From: Rhodanobacter sp.
Lineage (GTDB): Bacteria; Pseudomonadota; Gammaproteobacteria; Xanthomonadales; Rhodanobacteraceae
Assembly (NCBI GenBank): GCA_040371205.1
Contig: AP031382.1
Location: 2,849,562-2,913,561 of the forward strand
Length of the DNA: 64,000 bases
Direction of reading: 5' to 3'
Under the pieces are notes generated by a model. It ran no database searches, was not told the DNA's origin, and was given only the letters and a program-made list of their open reading frames with translations. Below are positions 26,296 through 43,350 of the stretch, one piece after another. Position 1 is the stretch's first letter, and each line of letters begins with the position of its first letter. Made by a program: the position numbers and the translations under genes.

Positions 26296-26601
26296 TCAAT
26301 GCAGCACGAACAACTTGTCGAAACCGGCCACGCGCAGCGTGCCGCGCAGCTCGCCGGAAGCGTTGACGATGCGGATGTCGGCGCGGTCGGCGCCGGCGTG
26401 CTCGCGCAGCAGCAAGAGCATGCCGAGCGCGGAACTGTCCATGCCGGTGACTTCGCCGAGGTCGATCACGTAGCTGCGCGCGCGCTTGCCTTCGCCCAGG
26501 CAGGCGTCGTGGAAATCGCGGTGGATGCTGAAATCGAACCGCTCGCCCAGCTGCAGGGTGAGGCAATCCAGTTCGGCGTCGTGATGGACAATCAGGCTCA
26601 T
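26296..26601 (-). CDS. stand-alone STAS-domain protein (distal end of the che cluster)
   Basis: A 101-residue single STAS domain like anti-sigma-factor antagonists. The strand VIDLGEVTGMDSSALGMLLLLREHAG holds the phosphorylatable-Ser position of the RsbV/SpoIIAA loop (MDSSALG, two Ser available). No anti-sigma kinase lies nearby. It is the last gene of the chemotaxis cluster, 144 bp after the second MCP-like gene, and a second STAS protein opens the same cluster. STAS proteins in chemosensory operons occur in several proteobacteria with undefined roles. The start ATG at 26601 gives MSLIVHHDAELDCLTLQL; upstream in-frame residues are Arg/Pro-rich and probably not translated. Confidence 0.85.
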   Translation of the reverse strand: MSLIVHHDAELDCLTLQLGERFDFSIHRDFHDACLGEGKRARSYVIDLGEVTGMDSSALGMLLLLREHAGADRADIRIVNASGELRGTLRVAGFDKLFVLH

Positions 26602-26745: not shown

Positions 26746-27936
26746 TCAGAAAAGCTCGATCTCGCCGGCATCCATCGAGTTCTGCAGCGCCGGACCGCGG
26801 GCGCGCAGGCGCGCCTTCTCGCGCTGGATCGCCAGCCGGTTGCGCACGCTCTGCGCCCTCGCCTCCAGCGCTTCCGTCTCCAGTGCGGTGCAGGCCAGGT
26901 CCTCGATGTCGCGGGTGCACTCGCTGGTGATCTCCTGCAATTCGACGAGGCGTTCGCGGGTCTGGCCGATCAGCTGGCGCAGGATGTCCTCGAACTGCAG
27001 CGAACGCACCGTGGTGGAAACGTCGCTGGTGAGGCCGCGGCTGATCTCGACCACCTGGTCGGCCACCTTGCTGGTGCGCGCGTCGCTCTCGGTCACGTGC
27101 GCGGTCATCGCGTCGATGCCGCCCTTGGCCGACAGGGCCACGTTGAGGTCCTGCGAGGCCATCGTGCCGATCAGGCCGCGCAACTGCTCCATCGCGGTGC
27201 GGGCACGCTCGACGTGGCCGCCGATGCGCTCGTTGAGCTGGTTGGAGTTGCTGGCCAGGTTGCGGATCTCGCCGGCCACCACCGCGAAGCCGCGGCCCGA
27301 CTCGCCGGCCCGCGCCGCCTCGATGGCGGCGTTCAGGGCCAGCAGGTTGGTTTCCTCGGCGATCGTGCTGACGTTCTTCAGCAGGCCGAACACCGCGTCC
27401 ATTTCCTTCGCCATGCCATCGATGCGGTAGACGATGCGCAGGCTCTCGCGCGACATCTGCACGATCATGCCCACGAAATGTTCCAGCAGGTCGCCGGTGC
27501 GCGCGGCGAAATCCTGCACCGACACGCCGCCGTTCTGCACGTCGATGATCTGCTTGAGCAGCGACTGCTGCAGCGCGGTCTTGTTGGAGAGGCCATCGAA
27601 GCCGCCGCCGAGTTCGGACACCGCGTCGCGCAGCAGGTCCAGGCACTGGTGCAACTCGCGCGTGGCATGGCCAAGCTCGTCCACCAGCGCACTGCGCACG
27701 TCCTCCAGCGCCTCGCGCACCGGCCCGGTGCTTGCGGCCGCTGCGGCGGCAACCGGCGCCGGCGCCTCGGCCGGCGCTTCGCTGCGCGCGGCGACGAACC
27801 AGGCCGCGGTGAGCGCCAGCACCACCAGCGGCGCCAACCACGCCGGGTGCCAGATCAACGTGAGCAGCAGGGCGATGGCGCTGGCGATCCAGCCGGCCAG
27901 CGGACGTTTGAACAGCAGGGCGGAAACGAAAGACAT
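26746..27936 (-). CDS. membrane-anchored MCP-like protein with a CheZ-like motif
   Basis: A 396-residue protein. Two adjacent N-terminal hydrophobic helices (about 13-47) leave almost no periplasmic part, so it cannot bind external ligands like a classic receptor. An Ala/Pro linker (52-72) leads to a coiled-coil cytoplasmic region with the receptor hairpin tip [18 protein letters not shown] (about 195-212) and [15 protein letters not shown]. There is no HAMP domain. Further on, [14 protein letters not shown] places Phe315, Asp317 and Gln321 in the arrangement of the CheZ active site (F-Q-D-x3-Q). The C-terminus AGEIELF resembles that of CheD in the same cluster. The gene lies directly after cheB, where related F7 operons carry cheY-cheZ. 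Receptor homology is seen; phosphatase activity is inferred. Confidence 0.88.
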
Positions 27937-27951
27937 GGTCCGTGATCCGGG

Positions 27952-29055
27952 TCAGGCGCCTTTGGCGCTGGCAGTGGAGCCTAGGTGGACGTGGTGCGCC
28001 AACGCGAGCAGGCGGGCCGCGACTTGATCGATCGGCAGCATCTCGGACGCCGCGCCGAGCTTCCACGCGGATCCGGGCATGCCCCACACCACCGAACTGG
28101 CCTCGTCCTGCACCAGGGTGGCGGCGCCGGTCTCGCGCAATTCGAGCAGGCCGCGCGCGCCGTCGTCGCCCATGCCGGTGAGCAGGGCCGCCACGGTGGC
28201 CTTGCCCACGCTGGCCGCCATCGAGCGGAACAGCACGTCCACACTGGGTTTGTGGCGATTTACCGGCGGGCCGTCGTGCAGGCGGCATACGTATCTGGCG
28301 CCGTCCCACATCGCGAGCAGGTGATGGCTGCCTGGCGCAATGTAGGCCGAGCCTTGCTGGATCGGCTGGCCGTCCTGCGCCTCGCACACGCGCATCGCCG
28401 AGCAACGATCCATGCGCGCGGCGAACGGCCCGCTGAACGCGGCGGGGATGTGTTGCGTCACCAGGATCGGCGGCGCGTCCGGCGGCATCATCTCCAGCAC
28501 CACGCGCACCGCCTCGGTACCGCCGGTGGAGGCACCGATGGCGATGATCGGGCTGCCGCCGCGGCTGCCCGCCACCTGCGAGCGCGGCAACACGGCATCG
28601 GCCGAAAGCCGCGGCGCCACGTCGAGCTTGCGCACGGCGGTGCGCGCCTGCGGCCTGGCCCTGGCCGCATGCTTGACCTTGGCGCACAGCTCCTGCGCGG
28701 CATCGCCGAAGTTGGCGGCGAGGTCGGCGTTCGGCTTGGCGTAGAAATCCACCGCACCGAGTTCCAGCGCGCGCAGCGTGACGTCCGCCCCGGCGGTGGT
28801 GAGGGTGGACACCATCACCACCGGCATCGGCCGCAGCCGCATCAGGTTTTCCAGGAAGGTGAGGCCGTCCATGCGCGGCATCTCGACGTCGAGCGTGAGC
28901 ACGTCGGGATTCAACTGCTTGATCTTGTCGCGGGCGATCAGCGGATCGGGGGCAGTGCCGACCACCTCGATCTCCGGGTCGGAGGCGAGCATGGTCGACA
29001 TCAGCTTGCGCACCAATGCGGAATCGTCGATTACCAGTACGCGCACTCTTTCCAT
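27952..29055 (-). CDS. cheB: chemotaxis protein-glutamate methylesterase/deamidase
   Basis: Removes methyl groups from chemoreceptor glutamates and deamidates glutamines. The 367-residue protein has an N-terminal receiver domain ([14 protein letters not shown], phospho-acceptor Asp56 in LTLDVEMP), a basic linker, and a C-terminal methylesterase domain with the nucleophile Ser in [11 protein letters not shown], His in [13 protein letters not shown], and the Asp-containing [13 protein letters not shown]. It is the only CheB in the window and probably serves both chemosensory systems. It starts 72 bp after the cheD stop. Its stop is 15 bp before the MCP-like gene. Confidence 0.97.
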
Positions 29056-29127: not shown

Positions 29128-29781
29128 TCAGAACAGCTCGACCTCACCCTTTATCGGATCGTTCGCCAACTGCTTGAGGTACTTCCGCTCGTTGTCGACC
29201 AGCTTCACGTCGTCGCCACGGCGCAGCAGGCGCACGCGCGCCTTGCCGCTTTGCGGGAAGAACTGCACCTGGCGCGGGTAGACGTCGCCCAGGTCCTCCG
29301 CCACCACCCTGAGCTTCTCGGTGGCGATGTAGCGGCGCACGAATTCGATGTTGCGCTGACCCACATCGCTCATCTGCGCCAGCACGCGGCCGCCGCCGAA
29401 GAGCTTGACGGTGAAGTCCGCGCGCTGCGCGCCCGCCTTGAGCAGGGCGTTGATGAGGTGCTCCATGGCGTCGGAACCGTAGCGCGCGGCGCGTCCCACG
29501 GTGGACGACCAACTGTCGCCGGCGCCGCGCGGCTCGGGGAGCATGAAGTGGTTCATGCCGCCGATGCCGCGCACCGGGTCGTGGATGCAGGCCGAGACGC
29601 AGGAGCCGAGCACGGTGCTCACCAGTTCCTCGTGCGCGCCGACGTAGAACTCGCCCGGCAGCACCTTCACGTTCATGCAGCCCTGCACCGGATCCCAATA
29701 GCGGCGCAGATGCTCGAAGCCGGGCATGGCCTCGGGCAGGGTGGGCATGGCCCGGCGGTCGGAGCGGCGTGCGTCCATCAT
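29128..29781 (-). CDS. cheD: chemoreceptor glutamine deamidase
   Basis: Deamidates receptor glutamines. The 217-residue protein carries the catalytic triad region: Thr/Cys segment STVLGSCVSACIHD and His in GIGGMNHFMLPE. Translation starts at tandem ATGs (29781, 29778); the first overlaps the cheR stop. The C-terminal half extends well beyond short CheD proteins and ends in KGEVELF, nearly the same tail as the MCP-like protein at 26746 (AGEIELF). No CheC partner is encoded in the window, so CheD is not expected to be sequestered in the Bacillus manner. Confidence 0.95.
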   Translation of the reverse strand: MMDARRSDRRAMPTLPEAMPGFEHLRRYWDPVQGCMNVKVLPGEFYVGAHEELVSTVLGSCVSACIHDPVRGIGGMNHFMLPEPRGAGDSWSSTVGRAARYGSDAMEHLINALLKAGAQRADFTVKLFGGGRVLAQMSDVGQRNIEFVRRYIATEKLRVVAEDLGDVYPRQVQFFPQSGKARVRLLRRGDDVKLVDNERKYLKQLANDPIKGEVELF

Positions 29782-30668
29782 GATCCGCGCTTCCTGTAGA
29801 CGGTACGGCCGATCAGTTCGAAGTCGTCGCTGATGCCGTGCAGCGACTCGGAGTGGCCGAGGAACAGGTACCCGCCTGCCGGCAGCAGCGCGGCATAGCG
29901 GCTGAACAGCTTCTGTTTGGTTGGCTGGTCGAAGTAGATCACCACGTTGCGGCAGAAGATCGCATCGAACGGGCCGCGCATCGGCCAGTCGTGCAGAAGA
30001 TTCAGCGGCCTCACCGTCACCAGCTCGTGCAGGCGCGGATGCACGCAGGCATAGCCTTCGTACTGGCCGGAGCCGCGCTTCATCCAGCGGCGGCGGCGTT
30101 CCTCGCTGATGCCGCCCAGCTTGTCCAGCGCATACACGCCGTTGCGCGCCGCTTCCAGCGCCTGCGGCGACAGGTCGGTGGCGAGGATTTTCGCGTCCAT
30201 GTCGCTGGCGCCGTGCTTTTCCAGCGCCTCGGCGAGCACCATCGCCAACGCATACGGCTCCTCGCCGGTCGAGCAGCCGGCCGACCAGATGCGCAGCCGG
30301 TCGCCGTCGCGGCGCTTGTGCTTGAGCCACGTCGGCAGCAACTCGTTTTCGAGCAGCTGGTAGTGATGCGGCTCGCGGAAGAACGAGGTGACGTTGGTGC
30401 TGATGACGCTGGCCAGCTCACCCAGTTCCTCGTCGGGCTGGCTGCGCAGCAGCTCGCAATAGGCCGCGTAATCGGGCAGGCGCAGCGCGCGCAGGCGACG
30501 CGCCAGGCGCCCTTGCACCAGCTGGCGCTTGTGTTCGCCCAGCGAGATGCCGAGGTGCTGGTACACGAAGTCGCGCATGAAGCGGAATTCGGCGTCGCCC
30601 AGCAGCATGCCGTCGTCGGCCGATGGCGCCGCGTCCTTACGGGTTGCACCGGCTGCGACGGCACGCAT
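29778..30668 (-). CDS. cheR: chemotaxis protein methyltransferase
   Basis: Methylates chemoreceptor glutamates using S-adenosylmethionine. The 296-residue protein has the N-terminal helical domain (FRMRDFVYQHLGISLGEHKR region, residues about 28-48), TNVTSFFREPHH, the SAM-binding IWSAGCSTGEEPYALAM, and FDAIFCRNVVIYFD. A beta subdomain capable of docking pentapeptide-tailed receptors is consistent with the upstream MCP ending in AWKEF. It begins two bases after that MCP's stop and overlaps cheD. Confidence 0.97.
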   Translation of the reverse strand: MRAVAAGATRKDAAPSADDGMLLGDAEFRFMRDFVYQHLGISLGEHKRQLVQGRLARRLRALRLPDYAAYCELLRSQPDEELGELASVISTNVTSFFREPHHYQLLENELLPTWLKHKRRDGDRLRIWSAGCSTGEEPYALAMVLAEALEKHGASDMDAKILATDLSPQALEAARNGVYALDKLGGISEERRRRWMKRGSGQYEGYACVHPRLHELVTVRPLNLLHDWPMRGPFDAIFCRNVVIYFDQPTKQKLFSRYAALLPAGGYLFLGHSESLHGISDDFELIGRTVYRKRGS

Positions 30669-30670
30669 GC

Positions 30671-32410
30671 TCAGAACTCCTTCCAGGCGCCGGCATCCGA
30701 GTCGGCGGTGATGGCGCGTTGCGGCGGCGCCTTGCGCACTGCGGCGAACACCGCCTCGGTAGCCTTGGCCACTTCCTTGGCGCGCGCGGGCGGCGCGCTG
30801 TGGCCCGCCTTGGCACCGGCACCTGCATTGTTGCCGACGCGGAAGAAGCCCACCTGCGTCGTGAGGTCGGCCGCCTGGTCCTGCATGGCGCGCGCGGCCG
30901 CTGAAGCCTGCTCGACCAGGGCCGCGTTCTGCTGGGTCATCTCGTCCATCTGCATCACGGCGTTGTTGACCTGGTCGATGCCGGCGGACTGCTCGCTGCT
31001 GGCCGCCGCGATCTCGGCCACGATGTCGGTGACCTTCTTCACGCTCTCGACGATGTCGGCCAGGGCCTTGCCGGACTGGTTGACCAGTTCCGAACCGGTG
31101 CGCACCTTGTCCGCGCTCTCGGCGATCAGGGTCTTGATCTCCTTCGCCGCCCCGGCGCTGCGCTGCGCCAGGTTGCGCACCTCGCTGGCCACCACGGCGA
31201 AGCCGCGGCCCTGCTCGCCGGCACGCGCCGCTTCCACCGCTGCGTTCAGCGCCAGCAGGTTGGTCTGGAACGCGATGTCCTGGATCAGCCCCACGATCTC
31301 GCCGATCTTGCGGCTGGAGGCGTCGATCTCGGCCATGGCGGCCACCGCCCTGCCGGCCACTTCGCCGCCCTGCTCCGCCTGCGCCCGCGCGCCGCTGGCC
31401 AGCTGGTTGGCGTGGCTGGCGTTCTCCGCGTTCTGCTTCACCGTCGAGGTCATTTCCTCCATCGACGAGGCGGTTTCCTCCAGGCTGGAGGCCTGCTCCT
31501 GCGTGCGCTGGCTCAAGTCGTCGTTGCCGCGCGCGATCTGCTGCGCCGCGCTGCTGACCGCCTCGGAGCCCTGGCGCACTTCGGAGACGATGCCGCTCAG
31601 GCGTTCGTCCATGGCGCGGAAGGCTTCGAGCAGGTTGCCCAGCTCGTCCTGCCGGTCCACCTTGATGTCGTGCCCCAGATGGCCATCGGCAATGGCGTGC
31701 GCCACCGCCATCAGCCGCCGCAGCGTGCCCGTGAGCGAACGAACCAGCAAGGTGGCCACCACGATCGCGATGAGCAGCCCACCTGTGATGCCGATCAGCA
31801 CCAGGATACGTACCTGGTCGTAGCGACTCAGCTGGGTCTCGTAGGCCTGCTTGACCGCGTCGGCCTTCACATCGATCAGCTTGTTGAGCGTATCCATGCG
31901 CAACATCAGCGCCGGCCGGACTTCCATTTCCAGCAGATCGTGCGAACCTTCGTCGCCCTGCTTCAGGGCGTCGGTGACATCCTTCAGGCTGTTGACGTAA
32001 TCCTTGTTCGTGGCGTTGAACGCCTCATACTGCTTTTCGACCGCCGGGGTGAACTTGATGGCATCAAGCCGCTTCATCAGCGGAGGAATCTCTGACTCAT
32101 TCTTCTCGAACTCGGCAAGCTTTTGCTTCACTTCGTCGGGTTTGTTGACCACGGCGGCCGCCTCGCCCAGCACGATGAAGTTCATCTGCGAGCGGCGTCG
32201 CAATTCGCTCATCAGCTGCACCGGCACCATGCCGTTTTCGTAACTGTCGCGCATGCCCTGGTTTTGCCAGGACATCACGCCGAGGCCGACCACCGCGCCG
32301 ATCACCAGCATGGCCGACAGCAGAGCGACCATGCCGATCAGGCGCGCCTTGACCGACAGGGAGGACAGCCTGGAGAGGCTGAAATACGCAATGAGTTTCT
32401 TGATGTTCAT
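30671..32410 (-). CDS. methyl-accepting chemotaxis protein (4HB type, Tar/Tsr class)
   Basis: Transmembrane chemoreceptor of 579 residues. Layout: first transmembrane helix about 24-48, periplasmic four-helix-bundle ligand domain about 49-205, second helix about 206-228 ([20 protein letters not shown]), HAMP ([20 protein letters not shown]), then the methylation helices and tip [20 protein letters not shown] near residue 382. It ends in AWKEF, an xWxxF tail like the E. coli NWETF pentapeptide that tethers CheR and CheB; both enzymes are encoded just downstream. The ligand is unknown. It lies 13 bp after cheW, within the F7-like operon. Confidence 0.95.
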
Positions 32411-32423
32411 CAGGATTCCAGAA

Positions 32424-32930
32424 TCAAGCGGAAACTTCGACGTCGCGGACCGTGGACAGCGCGGAATCCATCACGCCGACGTCCTCGGGACGCATGAGCT
32501 TTTCCACGTCCAGCAGCATCACCATGCGCTCGACGTGGGTGGCCAGGCCTTTCAGGTAACGGGTATCGACGATGGCGCCCATGTCCGGCACCGGCTTGAT
32601 CGCCGCGGGGTCGATGTCGACCACGTCGGACACCGAGTCCACCACGATGCCGAACAGGCGATCGGCCACGGCCACCACGATCATCACGGTGGCGTCGCCG
32701 TAGTCCTCACGCTCCAGCCCGAAGCGCAGGCGCAGATCCATCACCGGCACGATGGCGCCGCGGAGATTGAGCACGCCCAGCAAGTGTTCCGGCGCCTGCG
32801 GGATGCGCGTGACGCGCGTCCAGCCACGGATCTCGCGCACCGACAGGATGTCGACGCCGTACTCCTCGCCCGCGAGGCTGAAGGTGAGTTGCTGCACGGC
32901 GGGCGCCGTGTCCGCAGTGTTTTCGTGCAT
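32424..32930 (-). CDS. cheW: chemotaxis coupling protein CheW (F7-like cluster)
   Basis: Adaptor linking receptors to CheA. The 168-residue protein shows the CheW fold: [43 protein letters not shown], and [11 protein letters not shown]. It sits between cheA (402-bp gap) and the MCP. The unusually long gap upstream contains a sigma-28-like promoter, so cheW and the genes after it may have their own start in addition to readthrough from the cluster promoter. The ATG at 32930 is favoured; the frame is open far upstream but that stretch is Arg-rich and unrelated to CheW. Confidence 0.95.
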
Positions 32931-32977
32931 GGATCGCCTACCTTGTGTGGATCGTTTCGGTACGCCCGGTACGACAG

Positions 32978-33004
32978 GTATCGGCCGCCTCGCCGGACAC
33001 TTGA
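32978..33004 (-). promoter_or_regulatory. sigma-28-like promoter of cheW
   Basis: Minus strand: TCAA (33004-33001), 15-bp spacer, GCCGATAC (32985-32978). That is three of four and seven of eight matches to TAAA-N15-GCCGATAA, 48 bp before the cheW ATG. Confidence 0.6.
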
Positions 33005-33332
33005 ATACGTGCGCCACCGTCGTTAGAACGCGAAAATCCAGCTCGAGCCGTCGTTCCAGCGCATGCTCCGGATTGCGCCAGCGCGCGTTTCTTGACCCCG
33101 TCCCGGCCAACGGCGCCCTGGTAGCGCGCGCACCGCAAATCCCCGCGACAGTGGATTCGATTTCGCTTGCCAACCCACGCATGCGGAGGGCGCGGCTGTG
33201 CAAGGAACTCGTCACAGCGAGTACGCGCGTACCCACGGCCACGGGCACGGTTGGCGCATGGAGGCTCAAGCGTCGCAATGCCATTTCCGGGCGACATCCC
33301 GCTCCTCCCTTGCGGCGGTCGAGCCGCTTCCG
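33005..33332. other. remainder of the cheA-cheW gap, no gene seen
   Basis: About 330 bases between the cheA stop and the cheW promoter. Frames are open but their translations are Arg/Ala-rich and show no family resemblance. The only visible structure is a perfect 12-bp palindrome, GTACGCGCGTAC, at 33221-33232. Confidence 0.6.
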
Positions 33333-35342
33333 TCAGGCGGCCTTTACGCGCCGCCCCAGCCGCACCACGCCGCCCACGTCCACGATCAGCGCCACCGAGC
33401 CGTCGCTGACGATGGTGGCGCCGGACACGCCCTGCACCCGCTCGTAGTGCTTCTCCAGCGACTTGATCACCGCTTGCTGCTGGCCCAGCAGTTCGTCCAC
33501 CAGCAGGCCCACGCGTTGGCCCTCGTCCTCCACCACCACCACGATGCCGCGTTCGATCTCGGCGATCGCATCGGCGCAGCCGAAGGCCCGGTGCAGGCGG
33601 ATGATCGGCAGGTATTCGCCGCGGAACTGGAACACCTCGCCGCCGCCCGCGATCTTGCGCACGGCGCTGCCGTTGAGCCGCAGCGATTCGACGATGGAGA
33701 TCAGCGGCACGATGTAGCGCTCCTCGCCCACCGCGGTGACCAGGCCGTCGATGATCGCCAGCGTGAGCGGCAACGCGATGGTGAACACGCTGCCCTTGCC
33801 CGCGACGCTCTTCACGCCCACGGTGCCGCCGAGGTCGCGCACGTTGCGGCGCACGACATCCATGCCCACGCCGCGCCCGGAAAGGTCCGTGGCCACGGCA
33901 GCGGTGGAGAAACCGGGCTGGAAGATCAGCTCGGCCACTTCGTCGTCGTCGAGCTGCTTGCCGGCGGCGACCAGGCCGCGCTCGACCGCCTTGGCCAGGA
34001 TGCGCTCGTGGTTGAGTCCCGCGCCGTCGTCGCTGATGCGCACCACGATGTTGCCGCCTTCGTGGTGCGCATCCAGCGTGAGGGTGCCGGTTTCCGGTTT
34101 GCCCGCAGCGCGGCGCTGCTCCGGCGTCTCCAGGCCGTGGTCGATCGCGTTGCGTACCAGGTGCACCATCGGATCGCCGATCTTTTCCAGCACGGTCTTG
34201 TCCAGCTCGGTGTGCTCGCCCTGCAGATCCAGCTTCACCTGCTTGCCGAGCTTGCGCTCGAGGTCGCGCACCAGCCGCGGGAAGCGGTTGAACACCGAGC
34301 CGATCGGCAGCATGCGGATGCGCATCACGCTGTCCTGCAGCTCGCGGGTGTTGCGTTCGAGCTGGGCCAGGCCTTCGCGCAGGCGATCCAGCTGCGAAAG
34401 CTCGAAATTGGTGCCGATGTCGTTGAGCATGGACTGGGTGATGACCAGCTCGCCCATCATGTCGATCAGCGCATCGACCTTGTCGATGCCGACGCGGATC
34501 GAACCCACGTCGGAATGCCCGGAGGACGCTTCGCGCGCGGCGGCCGGCGCCGCGGCAGGCGTGGCGGCAACAACCGGCGCAACCACGGCCGCAACCGGTG
34601 CAGGTGCCGGTGCGGACGGTGCAGCCCCGGCCAGCGGCGCGATGGCGAGCTCGCAGTCGCCGTCCAGCCATTCGAATACGGCATCGAGGTCGGCGCGCGC
34701 TACCGCGCCGTGCAAGCGCAACTCCCAGCCCAGATAGCACTGGCTGGGATCGACCGCGGCGAATTCGGCGGGCGCGACGTCGCTCACGAAGGCACGCACC
34801 ACCTCCAGCCGGCCGAGCTGCTGCAGTTCGCGGAACAGGCGCAGCGGCTCGTTGCCGGTCTGCAGCAGGTGCGGCATCGCGACGAAACGGATCTCCCAGC
34901 CGGCCACCGCCGGGGCTTTCGCCTTGGCCGCCGCGGGCGCGGCCGCCGCCTCGCCGTCCACCAGCTGCGCCAGCTCGGAGCGCAACGACTCGCTGGTGGC
35001 GTCGGCGGCGGGCTGGCCCTGCGCGGTACGGTCCAGCATGGCGCGCAGGCAATCGACCGAGCGCAGCAACAGGTCGGTGAGGTTGGCGTCCACCGCACGC
35101 CGCTCGCTGCGCACTTCTTCGAGCAACGACTCGGCCACGTGGGTGAACGCGGCCACGTCGGCGAAACCGAACGTCGCCGCGCCGCCCTTGATGGAATGCG
35201 CCGCGCGGAAAATGGTGTGCACCAGCTCGTGGTCGGTCGAACCCGAGTCCAGCGCCAGCAGCGCGGCCTCCATCGCGTCGAGGCCTTCCAGGCTTTCCTC
35301 GAAGAAGGTCTTGTGGAACTGAGTCAGATCGACCGCGCCCAT
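33333..35342 (-). CDS. cheA: chemotaxis histidine kinase CheA (F7-like cluster)
   Basis: Receptor-coupled kinase of 669 residues. Order: HPt domain with His49 in FRAAHSIKGGAATFGF; a middle domain (about 150-240, YLGWELRLHG) in the place of P2; an Ala/Pro linker; P3 dimerisation (IDKVDALIDMMGELVITQS); HATPase with HLVRNAIDHGLE and ISDDGAGLNHERI; and a C-terminal CheW-like domain ending RLGRRVKAA. All catalytic boxes are intact. It follows cheY by 11 bp. A second, different CheA is encoded at 40317-42245, so the strain runs at least two kinases. Confidence 0.97.
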   Translation of the reverse strand: MGAVDLTQFHKTFFEESLEGLDAMEAALLALDSGSTDHELVHTIFRAAHSIKGGAATFGFADVAAFTHVAESLLEEVRSERRAVDANLTDLLLRSVDCLRAMLDRTAQGQPAADATSESLRSELAQLVDGEAAAAPAAAKAKAPAVAGWEIRFVAMPHLLQTGNEPLRLFRELQQLGRLEVVRAFVSDVAPAEFAAVDPSQCYLGWELRLHGAVARADLDAVFEWLDGDCELAIAPLAGAAPSAPAPAPVAAVVAPVVAATPAAAPAAAREASSGHSDVGSIRVGIDKVDALIDMMGELVITQSMLNDIGTNFELSQLDRLREGLAQLERNTRELQDSVMRIRMLPIGSVFNRFPRLVRDLERKLGKQVKLDLQGEHTELDKTVLEKIGDPMVHLVRNAIDHGLETPEQRRAAGKPETGTLTLDAHHEGGNIVVRISDDGAGLNHERILAKAVERGLVAAGKQLDDDEVAELIFQPGFSTAAVATDLSGRGVGMDVVRRNVRDLGGTVGVKSVAGKGSVFTIALPLTLAIIDGLVTAVGEERYIVPLISIVESLRLNGSAVRKIAGGGEVFQFRGEYLPIIRLHRAFGCADAIAEIERGIVVVVEDEGQRVGLLVDELLGQQQAVIKSLEKHYERVQGVSGATIVSDGSVALIVDVGGVVRLGRRVKAA

Positions 35343-35353
35343 GTGGATTTTCC

Positions 35354-35716
35354 TTAGCCCAGCACGCGCTTGACGGTGGCCAGCAACTGCTCGGGATCGA
35401 ACGGCTTGACCAGCCAGCCGGTGGCGCCCGCGGCCTTGCCTTCCATCTTCTTCTCGGTGTTCGACTCGGTGGTCAGCATCAGGATGGGCACGCCCTGGTA
35501 CTCGGGCCGGGCGCGCAGCGCGCGCACCATGCTGATGCCGTCCATCACCGGCATGTTGACGTCGGCCAGCACCAGGTCGAACGCACCTGCACTGGCCGCA
35601 TCCAGCGCCAATTGGCCGTTTTCGGCCTCGGTCACTTCGTGGCCCGCGCCGCGCAGGGTGAACGCCACCATGCCGCGCATCGAGGTCGAATCGTCTACCG
35701 CCAGAATCTTTGCCAT
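35354..35716 (-). CDS. cheY: single-domain response regulator CheY (F7-like cluster)
   Basis: A 120-residue receiver with acidic pocket Asp8-Asp9, phospho-acceptor Asp52 (LADVNMPVMDG), the conserved Thr in LMLTTES, and Lys in WLVKPFDP. It lacks any output domain. Its partner is most likely CheA at 33333; whether it binds FliM or acts as a phosphate sink is not evident. It sits between the STAS gene (13 bp) and cheA (11 bp) in the operon driven by the sigma-28 promoter at 36103. Confidence 0.95.
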   Translation of the reverse strand: MAKILAVDDSTSMRGMVAFTLRGAGHEVTEAENGQLALDAASAGAFDLVLADVNMPVMDGISMVRALRARPEYQGVPILMLTTESNTEKKMEGKAAGATGWLVKPFDPEQLLATVKRVLG

Positions 35717-42256: not shown

Positions 42257-42898
42257 TCAGAAACCGAATTCGCTGAGCAGCCGGTCGGCGTCCTCCTGGC
42301 TGGTGACCTTGGCCACGTCGACCGGCGCCTCGGCGCCAGCCAGCGCGCCGGTGAGACGCACCAGTTCCAGCAACGAGGTTTCGACCGTGCCGATGAAGGC
42401 GGACACCTTCTTGATGCGCTGGCCGGAAAGATCCTGCCAGGACTGCGCCACCACCATGTCGGCAAGGCCGGCGCGGCAGGTTTCGGCGAAACCGCCGGCA
42501 TCGCGCGCCAGCCCGGCGGCGAGTTCGTCGCCGCCCGAGCGCTTGAGCACGTCGTCGGCGCGCTGCGCCAGCGCCTCGGCCTGCGGCCGCAGGCGCTCGG
42601 CAAAGTCGATGCTGCGGTTGGCGGCGTTGGCGCTCATCTCCAGCACGTCCTGCAGGTGCTGGCGTGCGTCGGCGACGATGCCGGGGACGCCTTCCTGCGC
42701 CAGTTCGCCGCCGAGCCGGCGCACGGCGTCGTGCAGTTCGCGGGCCAGCTGGCCGAGCGCGCGGAACAGGTGCTGCTCGCGTTGGCGCACCATGGTGTCC
42801 AGCGCATGCTCGAAGGCCGGGCCTTCCGGGCTGTTCAGCAGATCGCGCAATTCGGACGGCAGGCTATCGTCGACGGCGAGGTGGGTCAGGGTGCTCAT
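42257..42898 (-). CDS. cheZ: CheY-P phosphatase CheZ
   Basis: Stimulates dephosphorylation of CheY-P. The 213-residue helical protein has the catalytic motif [15 protein letters not shown] with Asp156 and Gln160, and the C-terminal CheY-binding helix [10 protein letters not shown]. The long paired helices before the motif form the dimeric four-helix bundle. The ATG overlaps the cheY stop (ATGA). It follows cheY and precedes cheA in the standard gammaproteobacterial order. Confidence 0.96.
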
Positions 42899-43290
42899 GC
42901 GTTGGCTCCGCTGGCGGCGATCCGCTCGAAGATCTTGGTGAGCTTCTCCTGCAAAGTGGCCGCGGTGAAGGGTTTGACCACATAGCCGTTCACGCCGGCC
43001 TGGGCGGCAGCGATGATCTGGTCGCGGTTGTTCTCGGCCGTCACCATCAGCACGGGCATGCCTTTGAGCGAGGGCTCGGCGCGGATCGCGCGCAGCAGGT
43101 CGATGCCGGTCATGTTCGGCATGTTCCAGTCGGTGACCACCAGGTCGAACGGTTGGGCGCGCAACATGGTCAGCGCGTTGTTGCCGTCATCGGCCTCCTG
43201 GATCAGGGTGTTGGTGAAGCCCAGCTCCACCAGCAGGTTCCTGACGATGCGCCGCATGGTGGAGAAGTCGTCCACCACCAGGATTTTCAT
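42895..43290 (-). CDS. cheY: flagellar chemotaxis response regulator CheY
   Basis: A 131-residue receiver: [20 protein letters not shown], acidic pair Asp7-Asp8, phospho-acceptor Asp54 ([10 protein letters not shown]), the conserved Thr in MVTAEN, Lys in YVVKPFTA. This is the classic motor-binding CheY; its target motif is visible at the FliM N-terminus (LSQDEIDALL). A TTG four codons upstream (43302) is possible, but the ATG gives the invariant family start. It lies 60 bp after fliA and overlaps cheZ. Confidence 0.96.
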
Positions 43291-43350
43291 GTTCTTGTCC
43301 AAACGACTGCTCCGCGTAACGATGATCTTTGGGGAATGCGGGTTCGAGGT

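Follow-up and report, generated by a model that had tools for sequence, protein, structure and literature searches.

A McpA-like receptor-scaffold protein of Rhodanobacter as a candidate CheZ-type phosphatase

A 64,000-nucleotide stretch of the Rhodanobacter sp. genome (the window, at its whole length) contains a chemosensory gene cluster in which one product combines the tip of a chemoreceptor with a short motif resembling the catalytic site of CheZ. This raises the question of whether the protein is a receptor, a CheY phosphatase or a hybrid of the two. The gene and the relevant parts of its product are:

26746..27936, minus strand: McpA-like receptor-scaffold protein, candidate CheZ-type phosphatase (396 aa, ATG start)
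27850..27903, minus strand: first predicted membrane helix, residues 12-29 (structure model and hydropathy)
27784..27834, minus strand: second predicted membrane helix, residues 35-51 (structure model and hydropathy)
27301..27354, minus strand: receptor tip, 18 residues, residues 195-212 (from the translation; inside the MCPsignal match, 169-309)
26974..26994, minus strand: F315-E-D317-I-L-R-Q321, CheZ-type F-x-D-x3-Q site (verified by script and alignment)
26749..26766, minus strand: conserved C-terminal tail GEIELF, residues 391-396 (low model confidence, disordered)

MCPsignal is the sole Pfam family found in the protein (E 2.7e-23, cut-off E up to 0.01), and no sensor or HAMP domain was matched at this cut-off. 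Its monomer model has a pLDDT of 77 and a pTM of 0.41; given this pTM, the helix borders alone were taken from the model. They delimit two short helices (12-29 and 35-51), a long part (71-134 and 140-349) and another short helix (354-379), with residues 384-396 as a low-confidence end. The sequence-only reading had described two N-terminal helices without a sensor, a complete receptor tip and the residues F315, D317 and Q321. All are borne out: the two helices are hydrophobic, the tip is found at residues 195-212, and a script verified the three positions. The protein has the features of McpA-like receptors, namely an MCPsignal tip, membrane helices and no sensor domain. It has no match to Pfam CheZ (PF04344), which counts against a phosphatase. 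McpA-like receptors are of the PA0180/VCA1088 type, and in the available parts of the sources their function and their conserved C-terminus are called unclear (PMC7184735, PMC7534058). Those of F7 stage 1 and 2 clusters are described there with membrane helices, no sensor and a conserved C-terminus without the CheR pentapeptide, as here.

The gene lies in the following neighbourhood:

26296..26601, minus strand: STAS-domain protein, anti-sigma factor antagonist type, directly downstream (PF13466, E 5.7e-15; ATG start picked by frame inspection)
27952..29055, minus strand: cheB (profile match)
29128..29730, minus strand: cheD, also ending ..GEVELF (start approximate, frame open to 30330)
29778..30668, minus strand: cheR (profile match)
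30671..32410, minus strand: Tar-like MCP with 4HB sensor and HAMP, ending ..AWKEF (profile match)
32424..33284, minus strand: cheW (profile match)
33333..35342, minus strand: cheA of the cluster of the McpA-like gene (profile match)
35354..35716, minus strand: cheY of the same cluster, likeliest substrate (nearest solved chains 4H60 and 4HNR)
42257..42898, minus strand: genuine CheZ of the neighbouring cluster (PF04344, E 8.8e-27; PDB 1kmi_Z, E 3.5e-9)
42895..43302, minus strand: cheY paired with the genuine cheZ (profile match)

Read along the minus strand, the order is cheY, cheA, cheW, the Tar-like MCP, cheR, cheD, cheB, the McpA-like gene and the STAS gene. The gene thus adjoins cheB and takes the place after it, as earlier proposed, and its own cluster has no cheZ. 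The same position, after cheB and before STAS, is reported for PA0180/McpA/CttP, VCA1088/Mlp44 and SO_2117/McpAso in the parts consulted of PMC7184735, PMC7534058 and PMC9855816. By anatomy and gene context, the product fits the McpA-like receptors of F7-type clusters. According to the available text of PMC7184735, F7 stage 1 and 2 clusters have their own cheY and no cheZ, and McpA-like receptors adjoin the F7 cluster; at stage 3 an F6 cheY/cheZ pair is taken over, and the receptors disappear along with STAS and a serine phosphatase. The cluster in the window is a mixture of the published stages 1/2 and 3: its MCP (30671-32410) is Tar-like, not PAS-type and Aer2-like, yet the McpA-like gene is kept. 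The STAS gene (26296-26601) is without the adjoining response-regulator PP2C phosphatase reported for F7 stage 1 clusters, and the genome has a single, weak SpoIIE-type match (E 1.5e-6), ~0.9 Mb away.

The full-length protein, searched against 369 genomes of the class, was found in 88 (E up to 1e-20), and 132 frames with distinct ends matched in the fetched loci at E up to 1e-10. The alignment comprised the 103 sequences with at least 78.5 bits, query included, and excluded the 29 frames below that score. Position 317 is D and position 321 is Q in 102 of the 103 sequences each. In Jensen-Shannon conservation over these sequences they rank 13th and 12th of 396 positions and are outranked outside the receptor tip by F396 and F315 alone, whereas positions 318-320 and 322-324 rank 73 to 200. 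The exception at D317 (L131) lacks the tail and resembles an ordinary MCP; that at Q321 (L105) is a 291-residue frame. Both residues are thus kept more strongly than their neighbours, and this near-invariance is the opposite of the free variation that would speak against a phosphatase. Position 316 is E in 76/103, Q in 16, G in 7 and otherwise D or S, so that within the F315-E-D317-I-L-R-Q321 stretch first described, F, D and Q stand and E316 does not belong to the strict signature. The motif F lies at +113 from the NAA of the tip wherever both were recognised, and at +114 in two rows (L132, L133). For comparison, 125 MCP-like frames of the fetched loci were considered. Twelve of these had D and Q but were taken for family members and excluded; among the 113 others, 6 have D and Q together at the motif offset. 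Conversely, 123 of 125 hairpins carrying the tail have D-x3-Q at the usual offset, the other two being L105 and L181. The latter (L181 120-1301), a hairpin frame of 394 residues, carries the tail GDVDLF. The D317/Q321 pair is not chance, and the sequence observation on this site is right and stronger than earlier stated. Elsewhere in the protein, F113, A260 and D263 are invariant and S165 nearly invariant across a set of 22 sequences.

The place of the motif belongs, in ordinary MCPs, to the C-terminal (second) methylation region. In the MCP of the window, a 10-residue stretch of this region stands at +107 from the tip, and QNAALVEE.. or a similar sequence occupies the motif place in many further MCPs of the loci. 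Within the family, the methylation-site consensus matched 3 of the 103 sequences anywhere, and 100 were without it.

We then compared the site with that of CheZ. The motif is FQDLTGQ in E. coli CheZ (1kmi_Z, from the alignment), and the genuine CheZ of the window indeed has the previously described site, reading W-Q-D156-L-S-G-Q160 (WQDLSGQ). Position 312 of the McpA-like family is S or A in 80/103 aligned sequences, and the wider CheZ signature AxxF(Y)Q-DxxxQ (PMC7750401, available part) recurs as [SA]xxF[EQ]DxxxQ. On a helical wheel with four window sizes, D317 lies 137-179 and Q321 139-177 degrees off the buried side (absolute values), against 151-177 for the D and 135-169 for the Q of CheZ. 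D317 and Q321 thus lie on the exposed helix face, like the CheZ pair. Using hhalign, we aligned twenty 50-column windows of the McpA-like alignment with a CheZ alignment of 25 sequences (24 of 30 fetched loci with a recognised motif, plus the window's CheZ). The three windows holding the whole motif gave ungapped matches with probabilities of 75-87 and E values of 2.7e-5 to 4.5e-6 (one example: E 1.7e-5, probability 78). The probability was at most 24 in the remaining 17, which lack the full motif; for the corresponding segment from 107 generic MCP-like frames it was 0.3. Masking D317 and Q321 lowered the probability to 3, which counts against the phosphatase reading. The likeness therefore rests on the motif and does not demonstrate ancestry, and common ancestry with CheZ was dropped. 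What is alike is site and context, with the same register and exposure, and not homology. A Foldseek search of the PDB likewise counts against a phosphatase, with MCPs first and CheZ absent among the best 50 matches listed.

These results bear on the view that the protein is an ordinary chemoreceptor whose motif is a by-product of coiled-coil packing. An MCPsignal domain with an intact tip is what this view expects, and the relatives are published as receptors. P. aeruginosa CttP is linked to trichloroethylene taxis (PMC7534058), and deletion of Shewanella McpA left swimming unaffected while overproduction increased it (PMC9855816); the taxis link and the deletion, as given in the available parts of these papers, both count against a phosphatase. 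However, there is no sensor or HAMP match, 100/103 sequences are without the methylation consensus, D and Q lie on the exposed and not the packed face, the generic MCP segment reaches a probability of 0.3 against CheZ, and the two residues are near-invariant. We regard the ordinary receptor as very improbable.

The overall build of CheZ is also partly matched. CheZ is described as a dimer of hairpins with a linker leading to a CheY-binding C-terminal part (PMC7750401, available part). In both proteins, the returning helix of a hairpin bears F/W-x-D-x3-Q on its exposed side, and a linker and an acidic-hydrophobic C-terminal tail come next, although the tail sequences differ; pairing of CheZ with cheY has its counterpart in sister families of the McpA-like protein. 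The latter differs in its longer receptor hairpin, MCP tip, membrane anchor and lack of a Pfam CheZ match. Its site lies ~104 residues from the hairpin turn, placed by judgement, whereas that of CheZ is nearer, at ~41 residues. On the phosphatase reading, the protein would work like CheZ; it is not a CheZ family member, and we file it as a McpA-like receptor. CheX, CheC and FliY, which are CheY phosphatases other than CheZ, have a fold that differs from that of the McpA-like protein. The CheX site is ExxN (PMC3510030, available part), in contrast to DxxxQ here. Outside CheZ, DxxxQ is known from NarX/HisKA_3, where it also acts on a receiver from a helical dimerisation domain; NarX/HisKA_3, however, is a bifunctional kinase with the site beside the phospho-histidine, whereas the McpA-like protein has no kinase domain (PMC3510030, same part). 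Published McpA-like receptors are treated as receptors, with no phosphatase motif mentioned in the available parts of PMC7184735, PMC7534058 and PMC9855816, whereas F-x-D-x3-Q is present here. In the open-access literature, as covered by titles and the start of abstracts, we found no phosphatase proposal for McpA-like receptors; PMC10653921 does not mention the McpA-like protein.

The motif might instead be kept for docking CheY, CheA or CheW in the array, with no catalysis. Conserved residues at a surface may serve binding, the protein has another conserved patch (A260, D263, S165), and the phosphatase activity is a prediction. Against docking, it is the catalytic pair of CheZ, with its spacing and exposed face, that is kept while the residues between vary, and the same pair is needed for the phosphatase activity of NarX/HisKA_3 (PMC3510030, available part). 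We therefore hold docking without catalysis to be unlikely.

The conserved tail speaks to partners. F396 is kept in 101/103 aligned sequences, and in the family architecture a linker joins the hairpin to a conserved acidic-hydrophobic tail with F as its last residue. Across the 103 sequences, the CheR pentapeptide x-[HFYW]-x2-[HFYW] (as defined in the available part of PMC7184735) is not found at the C-terminus (GEIELF here); the second position has no aromatic residue, and the tail as a CheR/CheB pentapeptide was ruled out. In the window, the end of CheD, GEVELF (29131-29148), is nearly identical to that of the McpA-like protein, GEIELF (26749-26766). Ends like G[DE][IV][ED]LF occur in 118 frames of loci L001-L229: 54 McpA, 10 CheD and 54 that are unlabelled since their loci lie outside the neighbour table and that we judge, by length, position and ending, to be McpA, CheD and the sister family. 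An [IV][DET]LF end, terminal or a few residues short of the end, was present in 22 of 22 CheD frames parsed from 30 loci and in 27 of 28 of a second set, both counts being mostly of best CheD matches. Included in these counts are 24 of the 25 read from the 37 genomes with CheD and no McpA match. Beside McpA, 16 of 21 CheD frames have the tail; it is absent in L118, L121, L125 and L136, and the L122 frame ends at the locus border. The CheD of four sister-family clusters is without it. The tail as a pure CheZ-like dock for CheY was not upheld: because CheD has it too, it need not dock CheY, which counts against the phosphatase reading. Since both carry the same tail, McpA and F7-type CheD seem, from their sequences, to share a docking partner. 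CheZ and FliM bind CheY through acidic-hydrophobic peptides, and by analogy CheY as the partner would fit both.

Gene neighbourhoods bear on the substrate. In 79 of 80 fetched McpA neighbourhoods (~6 kb each side at most, many ending at contig borders), blastp with the window proteins found STAS in 32, CheB in 25, CheD in 21 and CheZ in 2; behind STAS there is often a frame that matches a receiver weakly. A Vibrio locus (L154) reads cheA-cheW-cheW-cheR-cheD-cheB-McpA-STAS-receiver. Family members were seen in Vibrio, Stenotrophomonas and Alteromonas; the scan of named genomes by tip patterns returned mostly ordinary MCPs, with 12 family members by motif plus L151 and L157. The genome of the window itself has a second such protein (G000:C1:2231783-2233102), a 440-residue frame with LLQFQDRVGQ and the end DDITFF. 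The stop of its gene precedes a cheY ATG by 12 bases, and after this cheY come cheA, MCP, cheW, cheR, cheD and cheB. This is a second complete chemosensory cluster (L136, G000:C1:2215000-2234999), in which cheY and cheA come right after the sister McpA-like gene and a search for cheZ found none. The sister family has FQDRxxQ and mostly a ..ITFF tail. A same-strand cheY follows directly in 30/30 sister loci, its ATG 8-62 bases past the stop in 28, two cheY being without an ATG; a stricter frame-distance rule retains 26/30, the other four having a cheY frame open upstream. In a third family (YQD), cheY directly precedes mcp in 2/2. The McpA1 family proper has an adjacent cheY in 8 of 94 judged loci, which counts against the phosphatase reading. 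The 131 motif proteins and 30 sister proteins were picked by the motif itself, and therefore their neighbours alone were counted. The window genome has three CheA/CheY systems and three DxxxQ proteins, namely CheZ, the McpA-like protein and its sister. The genome has one more CheA-domain match, the fourth, which is weak and lies in a 2058-residue frame, probably the type IV pilus kinase.

The protein could also be a phosphatase whose main substrate is the F6 motor CheY or the receiver of the PP2C regulator that follows STAS in relatives. The available parts of the sources report that mcpA-like, STAS and serine phosphatase genes move and vanish together (PMC7184735), that relatives localise with the F6 array (PMC7184735, PMC9855816) and that Shewanella McpA clusters with the F6-type kinase CheA3 (PMC9855816). 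STAS in 32/79 neighbourhoods, often with the weak receiver match, points the same way. On the other hand, no PP2C regulator adjoins in the window, whose genome has the distant SpoIIE-type match alone; the sister families and 8/94 McpA1 loci are coupled to cheY instead; and the F6 CheY already has CheZ. We consider such a substrate rather unlikely, though less so than docking.

CheZ is also present in 82 of the 88 McpA genomes, which counts against the phosphatase reading: McpA would seldom be the sole phosphatase. Its presence alongside McpA is as expected if McpA serves another CheY. McpA as the sole phosphatase was examined in the 6/88 genomes without a CheZ match and not adopted (FliM in 5/6, a CheA domain in 5/6, CheX in 2, CheC in none). 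Two of one genus (G068, G199) have FliM (divergent, E about 1e-38) and CheA with no other phosphatase found, and are suggestive only as McpA-only cases. In G214 and G093, drafts from a single genus, there is no or one weak CheA-domain match, and the McpA copies are altered: in L116 the tail is lost while D and Q remain, and the fragment L105 retains the tail without F and Q. We regard these altered copies as an anecdote. On the substrate side, 28/28 aligned CheYs keep N59 and E89 (E. coli numbering). Position 26, which contacts D143 of CheZ in E. coli, is basic in 20/28, including the CheY of the McpA-like gene's cluster and not the CheZ-paired CheY of the window; it therefore does not discriminate, and was dropped as a marker.

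The direct basis of the phosphatase reading is sequence, conservation, exposed register, the missing methylation consensus and gene context; dimer, docking, catalysis and substrate we infer. The receptor-phosphatase hybrid, put forward in the sequence-only reading as a hypothesis, gains support short of proof from the conservation of D317/Q321, the sister families beside cheY and the F7 stage 1/2 clusters without cheZ (PMC7184735, available part). Two membrane helices would anchor the protein, and its sensorless hairpin would presumably dimerise into the usual four-helix bundle. By analogy with the published work on relatives at the F6 array, the receptor tip may join an array. D317 and Q321, exposed on the returning helix at a distance of about 15 heptads from the tip, would act as do the catalytic D143 and Q147 of E. 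coli CheZ, with Q321 placing the attacking water next to the phospho-aspartate. The tail, being flexible, would probably hold a partner near the site, most simply the CheY substrate. The likeliest substrate would be the CheY of the gene's own cluster, without cheZ. We judge it fairly probable that the McpA-like protein is a dedicated phosphatase of a CheY-type receiver on a chemoreceptor scaffold. Our best reading is that such a receptor-scaffold CheY phosphatase would serve cheY genes without an adjoining cheZ, and the protein would probably supply the off-switch that an old chemosensory system has been missing.

A wider proposal, to which we give slightly less than an even chance, is that receptor-scaffold CheY phosphatases form a widespread second DxxxQ class in chemotaxis, with at least three families having the pair at the methylation-region place. 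They would be carried by cheZ-less clusters, as the original F7 off-switch that was given up when F6 cheY/cheZ was recruited for the motor. The phosphatase reading would account for the loss of the receptor when F6 cheY/cheZ is taken over. To our knowledge, there is no precedent for an enzyme built from a chemoreceptor scaffold. If the reading is true, this protein would be such an enzyme, and an array-anchored phosphatase would let one chemosensory system drain the CheY of another.
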